Positions 23,384-24,850 of a DNA stretch of 64,000 nucleotides are shown here, in pieces. A program made the translations under genes and the position numbers. The notes beneath the pieces were generated by a model that had not been told where the DNA came from, ran no database searches, and worked only from the letters and a program-made list of their open reading frames with translations. The DNA is taken from contig JAPKEJ010000005.1 of assembly GCA_028822155.1 (NCBI GenBank), positions 21,596 to 85,595 on the forward strand, read 5' to 3'. The number at the start of each line of letters is the position of its first letter. Within the stretch, counting starts at the first letter, position 1. The DNA is from Porticoccaceae bacterium. Lineage in GTDB: Bacteria; Pseudomonadota; Gammaproteobacteria; Pseudomonadales; Porticoccaceae.

Positions 23384-24349
23384 TCATACGGGGGGTTCAG
23401 TTGGGCGGTATAATTCAGCGATTTCTCTCAATAAGACCGTCGCGTAACAACCTTTGGGCAGACTAAATTGTAACTTTAATTGATCCCTTTCAATCCAGTC
23501 GCTTACTATGTTTTCGGGTCGCACCAAAACACTTCGACGCTGCTGAGTTAAACCCGCGTGTTCAAGCGCATAACACCAATTCTCCCACGGCGCTAAAACC
23601 TGACTTTCAATTTCACCAATCACACCGCCAACCGATGATCGTCCTCGCCCCCACAAAGGTCCGGTGTCACCGCCTTCTGCAGTCAGGTACAGCTGATTTT
23701 CGTTGATCCGTTTTTCAACGACGAGGTTAAATAGCCAGGAACGAGCTGCAGACAGATATAAACCAGTGCCATGCCGATTCCCTTTTAGCTTGTCCGCACT
23801 GATTAATGCTTGAGCCTCACCAAGATTATTGCCTTGGTGACCGAACCGTTGCTCACCAAAATAATTAGGCATCCCGCATTTTTGTATTACATGTAAGCGG
23901 TCTTGCAGCGCTGTCGCGTCCGCCGAGAAATTACGCAGAATAATCTGGAATTTATTACCCTGGTGCATCCCTCTTCGCAGTTTCTTAGTATGCCTAGCCG
24001 CGCTTACGATCTGGAAATCGTCATGCTTCAAACAGCCTAAATCTAGATCGCGTCCTGGTAGATATAAACTGAACCATTGACTGGTCACGGCGTACCGATC
24101 TTTGAGTCCACAGAAACCAACATCATTGCGCTTTACGCCAGCTAGTTGCGCGAGTAATCCTGCCACCCAAGAGGTATTTTGATCTCGCTTGCTGATGAGT
24201 AGCCATAAATGCTCACCCTCACCGGAGGGTTTAAGATCCATGATTTCATCGACTATAAAATCCTCTGGCCGACTTCGAAATAAGGCCGACGCTAATGGCT
24301 TACCGTGCAGATAAGGGAGTCTATTGAAATTAAAATTATTAGTTTTAAT
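23384..24349 (-). CDS. truD: tRNA pseudouridine(13) synthase TruD; the conserved frame extends upstream of the first ATG (24241) and lacks ATG/GTG/TTG, so it probably starts at ATT (24347-24349) or another non-canonical codon
   Basis: GVKRNDVGFCGLKDRYAVTSQWFS catalytic region; hand translation upstream of 24241 gives LIKTNNFNFNRLPYLHGKPLASALFRSRPEDFIVDEI, matching the TruD N-terminus; in-frame TGA at 24355-24353. Confidence 0.88.
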   Translation of the reverse strand: MKTNNFNFNRLPYLHGKPLASALFRSRPEDFIVDEIMDLKPSGEGEHLWLLISKRDQNTSWVAGLLAQLAGVKRNDVGFCGLKDRYAVTSQWFSLYLPGRDLDLGCLKHDDFQIVSAARHTKKLRRGMHQGNKFQIILRNFSADATALQDRLHVIQKCGMPNYFGEQRFGHQGNNLGEAQALISADKLKGNRHGTGLYLSAARSWLFNLVVEKRINENQLYLTAEGGDTGPLWGRGRSSVGGVIGEIESQVLAPWENWCYALEHAGLTQQRRSVLVRPENIVSDWIERDQLKLQFSLPKGCYATVLLREIAELYRPTEPPV

Positions 24350-24370
24350 AAGTCACTATCGCCCGTAAAA

Positions 24371-24850
24371 TCAAGCGCCTGAGGGCATTAAGAGAGCCGT
24401 AGCATAGCAGGCTATACCTTCTTCACGTCCAATAAAACCGAGCTTTTCAGTAGTGGTCGCTTTGATGTTTATTTGTCCATTATCACAACCTAAAATAGTC
24501 GAAATGTTTAATTTCATTGCTTCTAAATATGGCGCCATTTTAGGAGTCTGAGCCACAATCGTAAGATCCGCGTTACCCAAGGAGTAACCTTGCACTGACA
24601 TCATTTCAACAACCACACTCAATAATTCTAGGCTATCACTACCACGATATTGCTCATCCGTATCTGGAAAATGATGGCCAATATCACCCAGACCAAGGCC
24701 GCCAAGAAGGGCGTCAATCAAGGCATGAACAAGCACATCACCATCTGAATGAGCTTTAAATGCTCGATCAAAAGGAATGCTCACACCACCCAAAATTAAT
24801 CCAGTACCCGATCCAAAGGCGTGTACATCATAACCCTGCCCTATACGCAT
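24371..24850 (-). CDS. ispF: 2-C-methyl-D-erythritol 2,4-cyclodiphosphate synthase
   Basis: RIGQGYDVHAFG, AHSDGDVLVHALIDALLGGLGLGDIGHHFPDTD, INIKATTTEKLGFIGREEGIA. Confidence 0.97.
   Translation of the reverse strand: MRIGQGYDVHAFGSGTGLILGGVSIPFDRAFKAHSDGDVLVHALIDALLGGLGLGDIGHHFPDTDEQYRGSDSLELLSVVVEMMSVQGYSLGNADLTIVAQTPKMAPYLEAMKLNISTILGCDNGQINIKATTTEKLGFIGREEGIACYATALLMPSGA

Follow-up and report, generated by a model that had tools for sequence, protein, structure and literature searches.

Where does translation of truD begin, if its reading frame offers neither ATG, GTG nor TTG ahead of the conserved N-terminus? The question is raised by a locus in the window, a stretch of 64,000 nucleotides from the genome of a Porticoccaceae bacterium of the SAR92 clade. 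The genome, a draft of 108 contigs, carries a single truD copy. Comparison with related genomes makes it very probable that truD of this genus starts at AUU or AUC, in the window at the AUU 24349-24347.

The truD reading frame

The window carries ispF followed by truD, both on the minus strand and in the same frame (Table 1). The ispF gene ends with the TGA at 24373-24371, and the truD frame is closed upstream by a TAG (24358-24356) and a TGA (24355-24353). After this TGA the frame reads CTT ATT AAA ACT AAT AAT TTT AAT TTC. Window sequence and translation confirmed the observation of the earlier note that no ATG, GTG or TTG occurs in the truD frame between this TGA and ATG 24241. Domain content, the N-terminal motif PEDF.V.E and the motif GLKD classify the product as TruD.

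Table 1. Features of the ispF-truD region (positions in the window)
Feature	Position	Strand	Remark
truD, tRNA pseudouridine(13) synthase	23384..24349	-	321 residues from ATT, stop codon in range
Inferred truD start codon ATT	24347..24349	-	no other ATT/ATC precedes the conserved N-terminus in the open frame
36 codons lost if the start were ATG 24241	24242..24349	-	conserved N-terminus with PEDF.V.E
First canonical in-frame codon ATG, rejected as start	24239..24241	-	inside conserved fold
In-frame TGA closing the truD frame upstream	24353..24355	-	
GGGCGA, weak Shine-Dalgarno-like purine stretch of the inferred start	24359..24364	-	position profile, 41 genomes
ispF, upstream cistron	24371..24850	-	Pfam PF02542, 220.6 bits

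Conservation of the start site in the SAR92 clade

The comparison drew on the truD genes of 50 species genomes of the genus and of more than 50 further members of the family and order. At the codon that aligns to the window ATT, 41 of the 50 same-genus species had ATC or ATT (24 ATC, 17 ATT), which supports the ATT 21 nt past the ispF stop as the start candidate that the earlier note had proposed. The conservation of the ATT, suggested there as a check, held for an isoleucine codon and not for the triplet itself: AUU and AUC interchange, and some subclades have canonical starts. A refutation by homologues with a normal ATG at this position, likewise considered before, is excluded: most homologues have ATT or ATC there. 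ATA never occurred at the aligned codon across the 41 genomes, and it accounts for 23 % of the isoleucine codons in the window genes and for 26 % within the truD genes. Thirty-five of the 41 species lacked any ATG, GTG or TTG upstream in the open frame. The first canonical codon downstream was unconserved and stood, depending on the relative, at codon 10, 13, 18, 22, 31, 36, 49 or 54.

A Shine-Dalgarno-like element accompanied the conserved isoleucine codon. GGA, GAG or AGG ended 7-10 nt before it in 34 of the 41 genomes, compared to 40 of 425 internal in-frame ATT/ATC codons; the 41 genomes are related, so that these start and Shine-Dalgarno counts do not represent independent events. Position -11 was G in 32 genomes and A in the remaining nine, and position -10 was a purine in 40 of the 41. 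The window has -11 G and -10 A, as its relatives do. The gap between the ispF stop and the truD start ranged from 2 to 74 nt; many species have 2-4 nt, others 17-74 nt, and the window has 21 nt. Since the spacing holds across this range, the element tracks the truD start and not ispF. The weakest Shine-Dalgarno match (-2.2 to -2.9 kcal/mol) was seen in the window's own five-species clade, where the element is GGGCGA or GAGCGA with GGG/GAG 12 nt from the start; the duplex energy of the window's GGGCGA was -2.9 kcal/mol. In 36 of the 41 truD genes the RNA of the start region was less structured than internal windows. Lack of a canonical start, conservation and the Shine-Dalgarno element would together place truD among the genes with a conserved non-canonical start, of the kind of infC, pcnB and sigR.

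Among the other readings, initiation at a different near-cognate codon (CTT, CTG, TTA), or in a minority of species at a canonical codon overlapping ispF, survives best, yet we consider it improbable. An in-frame ATG, GTG or TTG is present upstream in six of the 41 species, overlapping the end of ispF in five of these six. In the window CTT stands just before the ATT, and several species have two tandem isoleucine codons at the start site. However, conservation and the 9-nt spacing to GGA/GAG are limited to the isoleucine codon; the codon preceding it varies (CTT, TTT, CTC, TCT, TAT, GCA and others).

Translation of the upstream codons

The ORF caller chose ATG 24241, and translation from this internal codon would yield a TruD shortened by the 36 N-terminal residues. 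The protein profiles argue against such a start. With the upstream part the Pfam PF01142 score of the truD product was 191 bits, without it 167.8 bits. The TIGR00094 score rose from 155.5 to 177.6 bits, and the cut-off of 172.2 bits was exceeded only with the upstream residues. The extended product aligns to E. coli TruD (1sb7) from its residue 7 onwards. Across 31 aligned TruD sequences, which extend to Planctomycetota and Campylobacterota, F31, V33 and E35 of the motif PEDF.V.E, all located before ATG 24241, were invariant, as were G81, K83 and D84; the window TruD has the GLKD active-site motif. A structure model of the extended protein had a mean pLDDT of 90.8, with two predicted strands (E20-23 and E31-37, pLDDT about 93-94) in the upstream part.

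The substitution pattern was that of coding sequence. Between the window and a 94%-identical relative the 36 upstream codons differed by 3, 0 and 7 changes at the first, second and third codon position, with a dN of 0.024 against a dS of 0.46. Among five close relatives the dN of these codons was 0.01-0.07 and the dS about 0.1-1.25; second-position changes were absent from every close-relative pair. Of the 52 window genes conserved in the relative G007, truD was the only one with codon-periodic substitutions upstream of the first canonical start. Six other window genes with a long open frame before the first canonical codon exhibited no codon periodicity in their substitutions; one of them is the untranslated leader of rpsP. 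Judged by these substitutions, the 36 codons upstream of ATG 24241 are translated and under purifying selection. Motif, dN/dS and profile scores thus bear out the earlier reading of the upstream frame as the conserved TruD N-terminus. Given also the unconserved position of the first canonical codon among relatives, codon 10 to 54, an internal start appears very unlikely.

Equally unlikely is the loss of the start in the course of decay of truD into a pseudogene. Decay does occur in these bacteria: a frameshift disrupts truD in G016, the G114 copy is degenerate, and no truD match was obtained for several family members (G036-G038, G088, G122). The gene therefore seems dispensable. Against decay as the origin of the start-less frames, nearly all genus members have full-length frames in which dN/dS is about 0.1 and the GLKD active-site region is conserved.

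Relation to ispF and sequence quality

TruD could also arise fused to IspF, through stop-codon readthrough or ribosomal frameshifting, as both genes share one frame in the window and lie only 2-4 nt apart in many relatives. We consider this highly improbable. Three in-frame stops (TGA, TAG, TGA) separate the genes in the window. Across species the ispF end and the PEDF motif are 83 to 200 nt apart (276 nt in one), a distance that falls into all three frames, and no common slippery site was seen. The least probable reading, a normal start concealed by an assembly or sequencing error, which the earlier note had held to be the main alternative and for which a single indel near 24350 in the draft genome would suffice, is practically ruled out by start-less ATT/ATC frames in separately assembled genomes of 41 of the 50 species, among them the single-contig genomes G017 and G022, and by the coding type of the N-terminal substitutions.

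A GTG in another frame (24357-24355, GTG ACT TAT TAA) was considered as an indel-hidden start and rejected. It occurs only in the loci L001 and L002 and is GTT in L003.

Canonical starts and evolution of the start codon

Nine members of the genus use or may use canonical starts. They form two subclades, one with the candidates TTG, GTG or ATG (L010, L012, L013, L038, L040, L041, L047) and one with the candidate ATG (L043, L045). In the sister genus g27 truD starts with ATG or TTG, and the readable truD genes at order level have canonical candidates. A similar state was found in six species of the genus g23 (L142, L216, L219, L220, L221, L223), in which ATT/ATC-containing truD starts behind AAGGTA-type Shine-Dalgarno sites replace ATG AAC AGC CGA CAG TTT; other g23 members have ATG. 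A possible single AUU/AUC case is L227 in the genus g18. Seven changes were needed to explain the AUU/AUC state on a tree of 99 TruD proteins; its distribution is far from random, and the count does not distinguish gains from losses.

Two minor observations concern the N-terminus and more distant relatives. Short repeats, of DSQ type and TEPS type, are inserted near the start in two subclades (L018, L019, L120, L122, L123, L124; L010, L013, L038). Thiodiazotropha and related gammaproteobacteria (L054-L073) have GTG or TTG as the candidate truD start, with an almost constant position (-28 codons), so that truD may tend towards weak starts more broadly.

Proposed mode of initiation

The reading frame, its missing canonical start, the purifying selection on the N-terminus and the conservation across the genus of AUU/AUC and of the place of the Shine-Dalgarno element were read directly from the genomes. 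Initiation very probably takes place at the AUU/AUC itself. The ordinary formyl-methionyl initiator tRNA would read this codon with a third-base mismatch, and the Shine-Dalgarno-like GGA/GAG about 9 nt upstream would position the ribosome. With the ispF stop just 2-4 nt ahead of it in many species, ribosomes finishing ispF may well re-initiate there at truD, and translation of truD would then be coupled to that of ispF. In E. coli re-initiation also drops with extra IF3 (PMC2268962).

Extrapolation from infC, pcnB and sigR, and from the AUU/AUA starts of S. aureus, makes it somewhat likely that the output of TruD is low and IF3-sensitive. Because IF3 discriminates against AUU and AUC codons, TruD would be made at a low level, and a shortage of IF3 would raise this level in the same way as for infC. 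That truD and infC form an IF3-responsive gene set in the SAR92 clade, which ties tRNA pseudouridylation to the initiation machinery and arose more than once in Porticoccaceae, is a tentative idea that we regard as rather unlikely.

Comparison with known non-canonical starts

Conserved non-canonical starts are already known, but the list is short, and truD is new among them in the open-access literature searched, where no report of truD with such a start was found. A survey of genes favouring non-AUG starts is attributed to Gvozdjak and Samanta (cited in PMC9845219). The closest parallel is infC, which starts with AUU in E. coli and with ATC in Streptomyces (PMC5472188) and shares with truD an IF3-discriminated AUU/AUC start behind a Shine-Dalgarno site. 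In contrast to infC, truD does not encode IF3, which leaves no autoregulatory loop, and its start varies between AUU and AUC inside a single genus. For E. coli pcnB the AUU start is cited as limiting expression (Binns and Masters 2002, as cited in PMC13009471); like truD it is an RNA-metabolism gene, thought to be held low by its start codon, but pcnB of the present genus starts with ATG or GTG. A genus-wide non-canonical start is also known from sigR of Streptomyces, with GTC conserved in 32 of 34 species and repressed by IF3 (PMC5472188). A third-base exchange, GTC to GTT, occurs in a minority. Codon and gene differ from truD, the Shine-Dalgarno sequence of sigR is extensive (AGGAGGTG), and the sigR start has been proven experimentally, whereas that of truD derives from comparison. 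In S. aureus, ccpN (AUA) and cvfC1 (AUU) have conserved non-canonical starts with about 10% of the AUG output in poor medium (PMC13009471). They resemble truD in their weak starts behind Shine-Dalgarno sites; however, they depend on extended start-proximal Shine-Dalgarno sequences, and that of the window truD is weak.

The list of bacterial genes with a known AUU or AUC start is very short, and such starts escape standard gene callers. In an abundant marine group the annotation of TruD is thus prone to omit the N-terminus. About 100 related truD genes form a natural series, in which the start is AUU, AUC, UUG, GUG or AUG and has switched several times, and for which infC serves as internal control. 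This series makes the question of why a gene retains a weak start directly testable.

infC and genome scan

In every readable infC locus of the genus the gene begins with ATT (GGAGTAAAGCTTATTAAAAAA), and its GGA-to-start spacing equals that of truD. In these readable loci (within L156-L177, including L165, G000:C2:5152-5658) GGAG stands upstream of the ATT; therefore the IF3 autocontrol is probably kept in SAR92. A codon-usage scan for start-less genes over about 390 kb of G017 was powerless: it missed truD itself and gave only 1.2 bits for infC. Near a contig end of the same genome (G017:C1:2206705-2210401, L299) a cluster of coding-like frames without an early canonical start was observed, possibly frameshifted or decaying genes.
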